Shown here piece after piece: positions 934-9,000 of a DNA stretch of 22,933 nucleotides. Within the stretch, counting starts at the first letter, position 1; each line of letters begins with the position of its first letter. Position numbers and translations under genes: made by a program. The notes below the pieces were generated by a model. It saw nothing but the letters and a program-made list of their open reading frames with translations. It was not told where the DNA came from and did no database searches. The DNA comes from a virus. The stretch spans positions 1 through 22,933 of IMG/VR virus record IMGVR_UViG_3300020446_000084; one strand, written 5' to 3'.

Positions 934-1569
934 ATGGCTCTAAATAGCTACAAAGTCACAGTTCATGGAACTGCTGGGCTTCTCTGTTCAAATGTACAAA
1001 ATTCTGATCCATTAGGTGAAGGAGCAAAACAAAAAGCATTTTTCTCCAGTAAAAAGAAAAAAAATGATGAAGATCATTTATGTCTAAGAGCATTGGATTG
1101 GGTCTTCTCTGGTTACTGGAAAAACGAAGGTAAAGTAAAAGTCAACGAAACTAAAAACTCTATTGAATTTGATGGATTTTCTGATCCATATATGCCAGGT
1201 GCTAATTTCTTGCGTTGTCTTAGAAATGCAGCTACCAAATGGAAGTTAGGTAAAGATGTTCTCCGTTCTGTTGTTGTTACGAATGATCCATTAATTGAAT
1301 ATGAAGGATCAAAAAACGCTTTAGAAATGTACACTAAAGACCAAACTTATTTTTCTAATACAGCATTTACATCAAGAGGTGTCTGGGTACAAAGATTATT
1401 ATTTCCAGATTGGAAATGTACTTTTGAACTAATGGTTGATGATGAAATCTTAAGTGTATCTCAACTAAATAGAATCATTACGATGGCAGGAAAAGCTGAA
1501 GGATTAGGCACATGGAGGCCAAGATTCGGCAGATTTTCTGCATCTGAACTAGTGGAGATGGCTGACTAA
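934..1569 (+). CDS. Phage protein with RAMP-like glycine-rich C-terminal loop
   Basis: The product is 211 aa starting MALNSYKVTVHG. I choose ATG 934 rather than the in-frame ATG at 871 because 871 lies within the promoter, while 934 has AAGGA about ten bases upstream. It belongs, as far as I remember, to a phage family described only as hypothetical. Its marks are an N-terminal beta strand followed by a DPL motif, a central MPGANFLRCLRNAATKWKLG helix, a DPLIEYEG motif, LFPDWKCTFEL, and GLGTWRPRFGRF near the C-terminus. That last motif has the spacing of the glycine-rich loop of RAMP proteins (GxG...G), as in Cas6 or Cas5. RAMP kinship is inference, and no catalytic residue can be assigned. 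Its stop overlaps the next ATG (TAATG), and the hairpin array follows that gene, so a role in binding or cutting the array RNA is possible. Confidence 0.85.
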   Translation: MALNSYKVTVHGTAGLLCSNVQNSDPLGEGAKQKAFFSSKKKKNDEDHLCLRALDWVFSGYWKNEGKVKVNETKNSIEFDGFSDPYMPGANFLRCLRNAATKWKLGKDVLRSVVVTNDPLIEYEGSKNALEMYTKDQTYFSNTAFTSRGVWVQRLLFPDWKCTFELMVDDEILSVSQLNRIITMAGKAEGLGTWRPRFGRFSASELVEMAD

Positions 1570-2057
1570 TGTCAAATCCGAGAATAGATGGCATTGACTG
1601 GAGATCACTTCAAAAAGGTGATGTTATCCCAGAAGAACATATTCTTGATTACTGGAATACTTGTTTCCCAGATAGAGAATGGGATAAGTTCAGCATGGTT
1701 ACTGTTAGAGGCAACATTGAAAAACTTCGTGAAGGCATTAACAGACCCATCGTTCTGAAAGAAGTAAAAGGAACTCTGGTTGTGCTTACTGATAAAGAGG
1801 CTGTTGATTATTCAGCAGCCCAAGCCAATGCTGGTATTAAAAAACATCGTAGGCATACTCGTAGACTATTTACTCACATAGATTCTTCTAAATTAGATCA
1901 AGCTAAGAAACGTGATTTAGAAACTAAACAGATTCATCATGCGTTCATAGCTTCTGCTGCTGATGGTGCTAGGAAAGAATCATTGCAGCTACAAAGAAAA
2001 GGAGAAAGATTACCTAAGTCTTTGATCGAGAAATCAGACTTTAAAAAATCTTCTTAG
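1569..2057 (+). CDS. Basic helical protein, partner of the RAMP-like protein
   Basis: This 162-aa product has no function I can name. Its start overlaps the upstream stop by one base and uses GGAG at 1554-1557. The first 50 residues contain GIDWRSLQKGDVIPEEHI and a Trp/Phe-rich segment. Residues 55-80 form a short alpha/beta part ending LVVLTDKEAVDYSAA. The second half is strongly basic and helical, with a KKHRRHTRRL cluster near residue 91 and further Lys/Arg/His-rich helices, which would suit nucleic acid binding. From memory, similar proteins sit beside homologues of the upstream gene in other phages, which would make them a conserved pair. The hairpin array begins about 95 bases after its stop with no terminator between. 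Confidence 0.8.
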   Translation: MSNPRIDGIDWRSLQKGDVIPEEHILDYWNTCFPDREWDKFSMVTVRGNIEKLREGINRPIVLKEVKGTLVVLTDKEAVDYSAAQANAGIKKHRRHTRRLFTHIDSSKLDQAKKRDLETKQIHHAFIASAADGARKESLQLQRKGERLPKSLIEKSDFKKSS

Positions 2058-2151
2058 AAATCGCATCGCAGCGTTTCAGTTCCCATTGATTCCGCTCCGC
2101 TCTAAACCCCGTTGCTCGATCTGGATCAACTCCCCTCTCAGTAAATGCAAT

Positions 2152-2215
2152 CGTTATGGGTGTCACGATAAACCCTTCTTAACATCTCTTGTAGGTGCAA
2201 GAACCAAAGAGGTGA
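2152..2215 (+). repeat. Array unit 1 (complete)
   Basis: Hairpin A pairs GGGT (2158-2161) with ACCC (2172-2175) around the loop GTCACGATAA. Hairpin B pairs CATCTCTT (2183-2190) with AAGAGGTG (2207-2214), 8 bp with one T-G wobble at 2185/2212. The inner stem pairs GGT (2194-2196) with ACC (2203-2205). Its inner loop differs from the AATA-type loops of the later units. Confidence 0.75.
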
Positions 2216-2332
2216 CTACGTTTCTTTTCGATTCGCTTTAACTCTCTGTGGCTCGCTGTCGATCAACTCTCAACTTTTTCATGCTGCTTTTTGTCACTCG
2301 TTTTGGTGCCTTTCTATTTGCCTCACTTCAAG

Positions 2333-2395
2333 CGTTATGGGTCTTACGATAAACCCTTTTCAACATCTCTATAACTTAATAGGTTTGCGAGATGA
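2333..2395 (+). repeat. Array unit 2 (complete)
   Basis: Hairpin A: GGGT (2339-2342) pairs with ACCC (2353-2356), loop CTTACGATAA. Hairpin B: CATCTC (2364-2369) pairs with GAGATG (2389-2394). Inner stem: AAC (2373-2375) pairs with GTT (2383-2385), loop TTAATAG. Confidence 0.75.
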
Positions 2396-2504
2396 TAATT
2401 CGCCTCACTTCTTTTCGGAGTAACTTGATTTACTGTATTGCCCCTCAGATCAAATTGGCTCGGAACATCTCGGTTCGATTTTTTGTATTTCTTTTCAACT
2501 CACA

Positions 2505-2567
2505 CGTTATGAGTGCTACGACAAACTCTTTTTAACATCTTTACGACTCAATAGGTCTGCAAGATGA
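2505..2567 (+). repeat. Array unit 3 (complete)
   Basis: Hairpin A: GAGT (2511-2514) pairs with ACTC (2525-2528), a compensatory change from GGGT/ACCC, loop GCTACGACAA. Hairpin B: CATCTT (2536-2541) pairs with AAGATG (2561-2566), another two-sided change. Inner stem: GAC (2545-2547) pairs with GTC (2555-2557), loop TCAATAG. Confidence 0.75.
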
Positions 2568-2729
2568 CTACGACTCTATTCGCTTTGTTTAGGCTCTTAG
2601 TGGTGCGACTTCGCTTGATTCCAGTTAATTTTCTGCCACTCGCTTCATTTCTTTTCGACTTATGTCAAATCACTTGTTCTCAGTTTACCTCCAGGTATAG
2701 CCTTGTAAATCGACTTTATTCTGCTCTTT

Positions 2730-2765
2730 CGTTGTCAGTTTACGATTAAAACTGTCATTACATCG
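2730..2765 (+). repeat. Array unit 4 (hairpin A only)
   Basis: CGTT is followed by hairpin A, CAGTT (2736-2740) with AACTG (2750-2754), around the loop TACGATTAA. The linker and a CATC-like start of hairpin B follow, but I find no matching 3' half downstream. This unit also breaks the regular spacing (225 bases after unit 3 and 100 before unit 5), so it looks like a truncated or rearranged copy. Confidence 0.6.
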
Positions 2766-2829
2766 TATTTTGGTTCTATTCTCATCGACATAATCCATCT
2801 CGACTTAGTTCCGTGCTTTTCAAATCTAT

Positions 2830-2892
2830 CGTTCACACTTCACGATTAAAAGTGTCTTAACACCTCTATTACTGAATAAGTATGCGAGGTGA
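2830..2892 (+). repeat. Array unit 5 (complete)
   Basis: Hairpin A: ACACTT (2835-2840) pairs with AAGTGT (2850-2855), loop CACGATTAA. Hairpin B: CACCTC (2861-2866) pairs with GAGGTG (2886-2891). Inner stem: TAC (2870-2872) pairs with GTA (2880-2882), loop TGAATAA. Confidence 0.75.
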
Positions 2893-3014
2893 TTTAAAAT
2901 CTACGCTTTGTAGTTCTCCTCATTTTGGCTCCTTGTAGATCCCCGTAACTCACATTGCTTCATTGCAGTTCTGCTTATTTAGCCGCAATTTTTTGCCACT
3001 TTCTTCAATTCAAT

Positions 3015-3074
3015 CGTTTAAGGTCTTACGTTAAACCTTTTAACACCTCTAGGATTTAATCGTCTGCGAGGTGA
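3015..3074 (+). repeat. Array unit 6 (complete)
   Basis: Hairpin A: AAGGT (3020-3024) pairs with ACCTT (3035-3039), loop CTTACGTTAA. Hairpin B: CACCTC (3044-3049) pairs with GAGGTG (3068-3073). Inner stem: GAT (3053-3055) pairs with GTC (3062-3064), using one T-G wobble, loop TTAATC. Confidence 0.7.
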
Positions 3075-3105
3075 CCTCGGCTCGATTTCACCTCGGCTCG
3101 ATTTC
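3074..3105 (+). repeat. Exact 16-bp tandem duplication in the last spacer
   Basis: ACCTCGGCTCGATTTC at 3074-3089 is repeated exactly at 3090-3105, directly after unit 6. It shows recent slippage or expansion in a spacer, in contrast to the diverged units around it. Confidence 0.85.
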
Positions 3106-3184
3106 GATACTTCTCATTTCCAGCTTGAATCGACTTACCTCAACCCTTGTCATCGTATGACTTGGCCTTTCGCCTTAAATCAAT

Positions 3185-3230
3185 CGCTTGCCAGTTCCAC
3201 GATTAAGAACTGGTATCCTTTTTCTTTGAA
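3185..3230 (+). terminator. Array unit 7: terminal hairpin with T-rich tract
   Basis: The unit consists of a hairpin A with the longest stem of the array, CCAGTTC (3191-3197) with GAACTGG (3207-3213), and the standard loop CACGATTAA. It is followed by a tract containing TTTTTCTTT and has no hairpin B. This suits an intrinsic terminator closing the + strand transcript. It overlaps the stop codon (3203-3205) of the opposing - strand gene, so it may serve both directions. Confidence 0.6.
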
Positions 3231-4548: not shown

Positions 4549-5118
4549 CTAATTTTGTATTAGACCCCAAGTTGTTGCAATATATTTGTGTTCGTTAATA
4601 GGTTGATTACCTCTATGTGTATGTGTAAAACTAGCAGGAAAAATAATATATCTACCTTGTATTGCTTTTATCCTTTGATTTAAATATAGAAATTCAGTCT
4701 CTCCTCCTTCTTCAACAGTATTTAAATATGCTTGAACCACTAGATACCTATTTGATGTAAGAATAGATTGATTTTCATAATGCCAAGTGTGATAACCTCC
4801 ACAGGGTATTATCTTTTTTATTTTTATATCGTAAAAAGCAAAATTACTTTCAGCCAAAATTGAATAACTATTAAAATATTGTTCTAATACACGTTCCAAG
4901 CCACCCATAAATATACTAGATATTTCAAACTGATTTACTTTAAAATCCCAAGACAAGAAGGCTTCTTCCATGTCACCTTCATGCTTTTTTATATTTTTAA
5001 AATATGTATGACCTTGTCGTTTTAATTTTTCAAAATAATCAATACAATGTTCTGACTCATCAGGAGACAAAATATTGTCGTAAACTCCAATAAAATTATT
5101 AGTGGTGAGTGTGTTCAT
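4549..5118 (-). CDS. 2-oxoglutarate/Fe(II)-dependent dioxygenase (prolyl hydroxylase type)
   Basis: The product is 189 aa and should use Fe(II), O2 and 2-oxoglutarate to hydroxylate a substrate. The iron-binding HxE is H113-Y-E115 in GGYHTWHYENQ. The second half has VEEGGETEF (135-143), then the GRYIIFPASFTHTHRG segment (155-170) with the distal His (H168, or H166) and the basic 2-oxoglutarate-binding residue K178 followed by YIATTW. This is the P4H-like double-stranded beta-helix pattern, at the usual size for the phage enzymes. Such genes are common in marine cyanophages, often close to tail fibre genes as here. Substrates are unknown: a fibre protein or a host protein is possible. The start overlaps the upstream small gene by 20 bases. 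Confidence 0.9.
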   Translation of the reverse strand: MNTLTTNNFIGVYDNILSPDESEHCIDYFEKLKRQGHTYFKNIKKHEGDMEEAFLSWDFKVNQFEISSIFMGGLERVLEQYFNSYSILAESNFAFYDIKIKKIIPCGGYHTWHYENQSILTSNRYLVVQAYLNTVEEGGETEFLYLNQRIKAIQGRYIIFPASFTHTHRGNQPINEHKYIATTWGLIQN

Positions 5119-6052: not shown

Positions 6053-9000
6053 TAGTCTTTTTGTGCAATGATAACGTCTAAATATCTAACTGCCAAGTTT
6101 ATAGACGTACCAGAGAATGAGTGATTATGAGCAGATCCACTAAATGAATGACTATGAGCATTAATTGAGTGAGAGTGAGCATTAATTGAGTGACTGTGAG
6201 CAGAACCACTAAATCCATGATTGTGAGCTTGTGTACTACCTTCATTAGAAGTCCAAGACTTATCTGTTTGTGCATAAGGGTTGCTTGGATCGTATCTTGC
6301 ACCTGGATAATTTACACCACCTGCATTATTTTGTGCTTGACCATAGAAGCCATTAACTTGGTCAAAGATGTTTCTGTCTCCTCCAATATGTCTGTGAGAA
6401 GGCATACGACCTGTAGAAAGTGTATGGTTACTAACTGAACCGCCAGCAGTTGCGTTATTCGTATTATTTCCTCCGTTATTTGTATTGTTTCCCCCGTTTG
6501 CGATTGAACCGCCTTGAGTTGTATTCGCAATCGAACCAGAAACACCCCTACTTGCAAAAGCAGATGTGAAATCTACTGAACCACCAGAACTAGCAGAACC
6601 AGAAACTACTCGTAATGCTCTTTGGTTTGTGTCACTTGTATCTTTAGTCCAACCAGTAGGTGCAGAGGTTTGCTGAAATATCATGCGAGTTCCTGATGGA
6701 AACCCACCAGCAGTAGCTCCATCTTCTACATTTAAAAATGCTCTTACAGCAGCGGCACTAGCAGATCTATGATAATCGTTATTATTTTGCTTACACATAA
6801 TGGCAGTTACACCAGAACCTACCGAGTTGTCAGTTGTATTTATGTAGTTAGCAAATATATAACCAGAAGAATGTCTCCTAACAATAGTGTTATTACTTGC
6901 ACTTACACTTACATCTGACGCACCAGCAATAGTACCGCCAACAAAGTTGCCACTTCCATTAATACCTTTAGATGCTCCATCAACAAAGAAACCACCATCT
7001 GCCCTTATATACCTAGGTGTATAAATATTTTTATTTGTTTCTTGATTGATTCTTAGCCATGTTGTATCTTCACAACCTATTTCTCCGACTCTTGAAGTGC
7101 CGTTAAAAAACTGTATATGATCTGAAACATTATTATCACCTTTATATATTCTAATTTCGTGTTCCCCATTACTACCATTTCCTATATCTAATCTCCCATT
7201 AATAGTTAATTGACCTGTCATTGTGTCATCTTGGTCTGATCTCAAGAATTGACTTGAATCTATGCCGTCTAAGGAAGCAGCGTTACCACCATCACTAACC
7301 CCAGCTAATGAAGCAGATGTAATATACCCTGCTCCGTTTGTTAATTGATTATTATTAGTGACATTAGTAGCACCAGCAGCAATACCATCAAGTTTTGAAC
7401 CATCACTAGCAACGTCACGACCATCAACTGTGCCTGATACTGTGATATTCCCACCTATATGTAGATCGTTGACAACTCTTACATCGTTATCTCCGTTACC
7501 TACAGAAAATATTTCTGTAGCTCCTGACCTTTCGGGAGAATCATTATAAAATCTTGTACCACCATAACCACTTAAACCACCAATTTTTATTCCAGTATGA
7601 TAACTAATTATTAAATCTGGAAATGGACTTGACCATGCTCCACTTTGCTGATAAATTGCGTAATTTTCTGCACTATTACCAGAATTACCTCCAACTGTAC
7701 CAGCAAAGCCAAGTTTTTGTACATTTAACTTACCTGATGTTGTGTCATCTTGATCTGACCTTAAAAAACTTGTCGCTTGTAAACCATCTAAAGTGTCTGA
7801 ATCTAGTCCGCTGCCCGATCCATCGTTTCCTGCATGAAATACCTTTTGTCCTCGCCAAGTTAAAGCATTATTACCAGAACCAATTATTAATTCATTTGTA
7901 CTGTCATTACCTCCGTTTCTAATTCTTACATTAGAACCACTTGAAGCTGAAATAAATGTATTATCATCTTTAGAGATAATCATATACTCAGAGTCAAGAG
8001 TTTGATCTGCGTGTTTTAACCCAAAATAATTGGTAAATGCTAAGCCTAATATTCCATCACTATTAGAATTTATATCGACTCTTAAATTACTTGTCATGGT
8101 GTCACCACCAACAGCAACAAAACCAGATGCTTGAACTCCATCTAAAGTGTCAGCGTCTAGCCCTGACCCCGATCCATCTACAGTTTTAATTAGTGTTAGT
8201 ATTTCGCTTGCTGACTGATCTGCGGTAGCTGACGCTTCTATGCCATTTAATTTTGAATGGTCTGCGTCTGTAAATACGTTACTGTCAGATGCAGCCTCTA
8301 CAGCAGCCCTGACCTGTGCGTTTGATAACTGAGTATTGGTATCAGTAGGAGTAGCCCAAGATAAATTTCCATTGCTATCTGTTTTTAAAAATTTTCCGTT
8401 TTGAATATCTTCTGGGAAAACAAGAGTATAACTAGCAGAAGCACTATGAGGTGGACTTTTTAATTTAATACCATGGGAGTTCTCTGCACAATTAAGTTGA
8501 ATATAACCTTCAGTTGTACCTGATATACCCTTTGCTATAAACGCTGCTTCAGACGAATCAGAAACTCCTGTTATATGAGCAGTTGAAATAATATCCCCTG
8601 TTACATCAAGACCAGCTTCACAATCTACATTGGTTTTTAAATCAATATGACCATCACTATTTATTACAAATCTATTTGCTGTACTTGATTGATTTCTTAT
8701 TACAAATGCACCACTTTCTGCAAATATTCTGTAATCAGGATTTCCGTCAGATTCAGCTAAATCTATAATTGGAGTTGTAGAGTTAATAGTTAACTTTGAT
8801 CCAGTTATATTTTGCGAACCAAAATCAGGAGAAATCTTTGTGCCAGCTATCGCTGCATTTGAGGCTATATTTGCGTTATCAATTACACCACTATCAATAC
8901 TTAGTGTGTCTCCACTATTCGAGACCACAATATCTCCTTTATCGCCATCAGATAATCCACCACCACCCGATACTTTTGCTACGTTTCCGTTATCTTTTAG

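Follow-up and report, generated by a model that had tools for sequence, protein, structure and literature searches.

A tandem RNA array beside a Vipr-like RAMP gene: a probable VIPR system with seven vrRNA units in a putative marine cyanophage

The Vipr-like gene, its partner and the viral context

The window, i.e., the whole stretch of viral DNA analyzed here (22,933 nt; positions 1 to 22,933 of IMG/VR record IMGVR_UViG_3300020446_000084), contains a tandem array of hairpins on the plus strand at 2058-3214, which is placed between convergent genes. Two places upstream of the array lies the gene for a Vipr-like RAMP protein (934-1569, plus strand; the open reading frame was called at 871-1569, but the homologs start at Met22, at about 934). 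A phmmer comparison matched the protein to PDB entry 36pp, "SUSP1 Vipr protein", with an E-value of 1.6e-17, versus only 0.49 for Csm5. The G-loop GxGxWRPRxGxF is common to the window protein and to the proteins of wV8, Trine, and MakoManhole, and the AlphaFold model matches RAMPs of the Csm3/Csm5 type (best E-value 2e-4, TM-scores of 0.3-0.45). The match to 36pp, the G-loop, and the RAMP fold together identify the protein as a member of the Vipr proteins.

The gene between vipr and the array (1569-2057, plus strand) shares 1 nt with the vipr stop codon and encodes a protein of 162 amino acids. It has the same position next to vipr as gp095 of wV8, and by this position it is a candidate vap gene (VIPR accessory protein). 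In the predicted structure of its product (pLDDT 79), two long helices come after helices and a beta hairpin, and no significant fold match was found for this model. A comparison of its profile with the vap set of wV8, MakoManhole, and Trine gave an alignment that was in a similar register but not significant (E-value 0.18). The partner gene is conserved together with vipr down to about 40% identity, and vipr, partner gene, and array stay together in dozens of phages, in which the identity falls to 48% for Vipr and to about 40% for the partner. In a distant branch (L226, after position 6851; L229, after position 1309) the array is situated between vipr and the partner gene, and not after the latter.

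The Vipr of the window's clade occurred in 78 viral loci, and a profile search of 84,980 bacterial and archaeal genomes retrieved none. Within the collections searched, the clade therefore seems to be restricted to viruses. A partial similarity of the tape-measure protein to those of Prochlorococcus and Synechococcus siphophages suggests a cyanobacterial host. Two further genes were noted in passing: a gene of the 2OG-Fe(II) oxygenase family at the edge of the tail module of the window (4549-5118, minus strand; phrog_61, E-value 6e-33), and, in the related locus L115, a tyrosine-integrase-like reading frame, which was recognized by eye on the opposite strand downstream of about 6900, after a short array.

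Array architecture and covariation of the structured tails

The array has seven hairpin A cores, at 2165, 2346, 2518, 2742, 2842, 3028, and 3199, and an additional hairpin B follows five of the seven units (plus strand; 2183-2214 after unit 1, 2364-2394 after unit 2, 2536-2566 after unit 3, 2861-2891 after unit 5, and 3044-3073 after unit 6), while unit 4 and the last unit consist of hairpin A without hairpin B. The spacing of the units is irregular, from 100 to 224 nt. The tandem units and their stems had already been listed for the plus strand in a preliminary description, which was made from the sequence without database searches, and they are all present. The same description had also emphasized the constant loop of hairpin A. 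The constancy is real, but it is not that of a mere loop, because the ACGA within it is complementary to a constant TCGT, which closely precedes hairpin A. Hairpin A is thus an H-type pseudoknot with the helices S1 (TCGT/ACGA) and S2 (the variable stem). The extent of the unit had also been drawn too small: it comprises not only the hairpins but also the periodic linker on the 5'-side of each hairpin A.

All tails are on the plus strand. That of unit 1 (2151-2175) combines TCGT/ACGA in S1 with GGGT/ACCC in S2, and that of unit 2 (2332-2356) has the same S2 with CGT/ACG in S1. S2 is GAGT/ACTC in unit 3 (2504-2528), CAGTTT/AAACTG in unit 4 (2729-2754), ACACTT/AAGTGT in unit 5 (2829-2855), and AAGGT/ACCTT in unit 6 (3014-3038). 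The tail of unit 7 (3184-3214) contains CCAGTTC/GAACTGG, followed by the T-rich stretch TATCCTTTTTCTTT, and looks like the 3'-end of the array; a generic terminator scan called no terminator at this last unit, nor any for the array. One tail version, ATCGYTNACACTTNACGATTAAAAGTGT, is letter-identical in L115:6703, L126:4403, L128:3583, and similar loci, despite neighboring proteins that are only 38-68% identical, and therefore the S2 sequence itself may be recognized in this version.

Relatives were fetched from IMG/VR via the two flanking genes, and most loci that were retrieved with the gene for the 162-aa protein had a similar array at the same place. Thirteen units were used for a covariance model, which had 198 matches in 68 sources at an E-value of at most 0.01. 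In 96 distinct units, two-sided pair changes were counted in 233 cells at 10 pairs, versus at most 57 when the partners were slid, and the cells were paired in 100% of the cases for the hairpin A stem, in 98% for the outer stem of hairpin B, and in 92% for its inner stem. The covariation of the stems, which had been proposed from the window alone together with a check by a covariance model from aligned units, is thus strong, and it includes S2. The three core pairs of S1 are invariant within the window's clade, so that covariation cannot support this helix. Its support comes from the tails of wV8 (Felixounavirus, L164), which have the same order of parts in other letters: one was read by eye as (GGT.NN)n followed by GTAG-TTA-GTCTCA-G-CTAC-ATTAAAA-TGAGAC, a second one as AAGG/CCTT plus GGCAG/CTGCC. 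The pseudoknot topology can therefore be recognized by sequence both in the window and in wV8.

Wobble cells were G-T in 130 cases and A-C in only 11, which favors the plus strand as the RNA strand, as previously proposed. The proposed comparison with Rfam also turned out as expected: no covariance model matched the window at the gathering score, and none at an E-value of up to 5. The L126 array had sub-threshold Rfam hits only. No tRNA or tmRNA was found.

Guide tracts and their NN code

The linkers between the hairpins, seemingly plain DNA, had been passed over. They are pentanucleotide tracts, in which a constant YKY triplet alternates with a free NN dinucleotide, and each tail begins directly after the last NN of its tract. 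The tracts, called guides in the following, are all on the plus strand, and the triplets were counted in one of the five phases, with p values against dinucleotide shuffles. For guides 2 to 6 the p value was at most 0.0005 in each case: 20 of 23 triplets were in phase in guide 2 (2217-2331; 22-23 repeats), 17 of 21 in guide 3 (2399-2503; 21 repeats), 22 of 32 in guide 4 (2569-2728; about 31 repeats in one phase), 9 of 13 in guide 5 (2764-2828; 13 repeats), and 19 of 24 in guide 6 (2894-3013; 22 repeats). Guide 1 (2060-2150) is less regular (9/18, p=0.01). In guide 7 (3075-3183) the phase is broken (7/21, p=0.82), while it is regular in relatives, e.g., with 25 repeats in L088:2216. Guide 7 may be inactive in the window phage. 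A 16-nt imperfect tandem duplication at its start (3067-3098) disturbs the 5-nt phase.

Most triplets in a set of 200 distinct guides are CTC, TTC, TTT, CTT, or TGC/TGY. The information content is 0.39, 0.80, and 0.96 bits at the three triplet positions, values that are biased upward because the guides were selected on the motif, and 0.04 and 0.07 bits at the two NN positions, which are free of this bias. A constant triplet and a hypervariable dinucleotide therefore characterize the window's repeats: the hairpins are the constant handle, and the information sits in the linkers. Sister phages have YTC, YGY, or NGC triplets, with NGC/YGY in L195, L229, and L232. In the distant branch of L226 and L229 the constant triplet looks like NGC.

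Guides of the window's clade were also compared with those of phages with a Vipr of about 46-70% identity. Eighty cross-clade pairs had at least nine identical NN, compared to none of 21,574 shuffled pairs. In these 80 pairs 73% of the NN letters but only 57% of the motif letters were identical, versus 35% and 44%, respectively, in unrelated pairs, a contrast that is somewhat inflated because the pairs were picked by NN similarity. In the best pair, L112:4346 and L155:1870, 18 of 20 NN are common, although 48% of the motif letters differ. Guide 2 of the window belongs to the same family (14 of 20 NN identical to L155:1870), the pattern of which is ACNGGNGCNCGNAANTCNTYNCANTGNATNCANGTNGGNATNTA. 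The core NN of this family (L112:4346, L155:1870, and window 2217-2331) read ca tg at ca gt gg at ta, and in some members the tract is displaced against the tail by exactly one repeat. The retention of NN letters under drifting motif letters is what selection on an NN code would leave.

Targets were searched with local scans and with exact patterns. The local scans used the last 14-18 NN of 155-300 guides, with skips of 0-2 and additionally 4 on cultured cyanophages. The related phage contigs scanned amounted to as much as 3.9 Mb when both strands are counted, and the cultured cyanophages (P-SSP7, MED4-117, most of P-SSM2, and half of P-SS2) to about 330 kb; in both sets the results were no better than those with shuffles. 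Exact one-skip patterns of four guide families had 3 and 7 matches in IMG/VR that did not extend beyond the pattern and otherwise none, and one such pattern had two unrelated matches in the 84,980 genomes. Exact patterns are strict, and therefore missing targets do not refute targeting.

The lack of target matches is one of three results that would fit a structured RNA array that contains no guides and serves as a scaffold, a decoy, or a packaging RNA, with the RAMP-like neighbor being incidental. The real covariation in tandem units and the lack of an Rfam match are the other two. However, such an RNA would leave unexplained the 5-nt phase of the linkers, the near-random NN positions, the sharing of NN between distant phages, and the constant linkage to the vipr gene, and it is regarded as very improbable. 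An element that acts as DNA, i.e., an origin, a set of attC-like recombination sites, or a series of terminators between convergent operons, has an even lower probability. The convergent flanking genes, the hairpins, and the terminator-like last unit would be in agreement with it, but the 130:11 ratio of G-T to A-C favors a single-stranded plus-strand RNA, attC R-box sequences were not recognized by eye, the terminator scan had no result, and the linker period is again left unexplained. Least credible of all is a CRISPR array or a mimic of CRISPR repeats (an RNA anti-CRISPR), for, despite the adjoining RAMP-like protein and the alternation reminiscent of repeats and spacers, the "repeats" vary in sequence and keep only their pairing, the "spacers" have a 5-nt period that is absent from CRISPR spacers, the spacing is irregular, the sequence match is to Vipr rather than to a CRISPR RAMP, and no cas family was matched by the window proteins scanned, which were part of its genes. 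From the anatomy a CRISPR array, an attC array, the RNA of a type III toxin-antitoxin system, a phi29-like pRNA, and a riboswitch had been considered as well; they were dropped on the 5-nt period and the vipr gene.

Interpretation and comparison with known systems

VIPR was first described in 2026 (PMC13142463). According to that preprint, a system combines a Vipr RAMP with vrRNAs and, in most cases, a vap gene; Vipr is a small RAMP with a single RRM core, a G-loop, and a thumb. A vrRNA has 9-16 YNNGG repeats and a structured tail, which is pseudoknotted in the SUSP1 clade, and the vrRNAs are expressed, are about 100 nt long, and bind Vipr. The NN dinucleotides bind double-stranded DNA, with one base skipped per repeat, and the targets are in competing elements. 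The preprint distinguishes seven types among 667 systems, with SUSP1 and wV8 in type II, and gives the motif as "GGY/NN or a related consensus" (fig. S17). VIPR has been proposed as the root of class 1 CRISPR.

The RNA of the window had been taken to belong to no named family. This view can no longer be held, because its plan is that of the vrRNA arrays (PMC13142463), and a Vipr-type RAMP gene with its partner immediately precedes the array. From the Vipr match, the RAMP fold, the pentanucleotide linkers, and the pseudoknot resembling that of wV8 we conclude with high confidence that the seven units at 2058-3214 form the vrRNA array of a VIPR system in a putative marine cyanophage. Each unit would consist, from 5' to 3', of a YKY/NN guide tract and the constant H-type pseudoknot tail, and hairpin B, which separates most units, probably serves processing or insulation. 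The array would be expressed and form an RNP, in which the Vipr RAMP would coat the guide, keep the YKY triplets unpaired, and present the NN pairs, and the candidate vap product may have an accessory role. The analogy to SUSP1 predicts that the RNP binds and represses double-stranded DNA that matches NNxNNxNN (one base skipped), probably in competing mobile elements. That the array acts against competing elements seems somewhat more likely than not.

A more far-reaching reading, which in our estimate has about an even chance of being correct, is that of a marine cyanophage branch of VIPR in which YKY, with GC-containing versions in sister phages, replaces GGY, and in which the NN code is kept at a Vipr identity of about 57%, can be deduced by comparing sequences alone, and indicates a deeply conserved target. 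A naturally occurring branch that uses a different constant triplet distinguishes the structural letters of the repeat from those that carry the code, and it extends VIPR to abundant marine viruses. That NN is preserved while the motif letters drift speaks for a noncontiguous code, independently of laboratory assays. Targets, if found, would reveal the elements that are in competition within marine cyanobacteria.

Among known systems, those of SUSP1 and wV8 are closest. They share with the window a Vipr RAMP with the same G-loop, the combination of vipr and a partner gene, several vrRNAs in flanking intergenic DNA, and a pentanucleotide guide that is directly followed by an H-type pseudoknot tail. 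However, the GGY triplet (GGT in wV8) is not found in the window's clade, which has YKY (CTC, TTC, or TGY), the guides have 13-31 instead of 9-16 repeats, the partner gene has no detectable similarity to the vap of wV8, and S1 is constantly TCGT/ACGA, unlike in wV8. In addition, seven units are arranged on one side only, and an extra hairpin between the units is not part of the published VIPR consensus. For other VIPR types, the preprint admits related consensus motifs as well as different array architectures (PMC13142463), and therefore YKY alone does not exclude membership; the window's clade may already be among the 667 systems. TIGR-Tas systems also have tandem guide-RNA arrays linked to phages, but, according to the abstract of their description (PMC12045711), the Tas protein was found from the guide-interaction domain of Cas9 and is not a RAMP, which sets these systems apart by description. 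The predicted fold of Vipr resembles the RAMPs of class 1 CRISPR (Csm3, Csm5, and Cas7); unlike in class 1 CRISPR, a cas operon and CRISPR repeats were not seen in the window, and the guide format is noncontiguous. The YKY triplet, the long guides, the seven-unit array, and the hairpin between units thus characterize at least a variant of VIPR, a kind of system that is known from PMC13142463.
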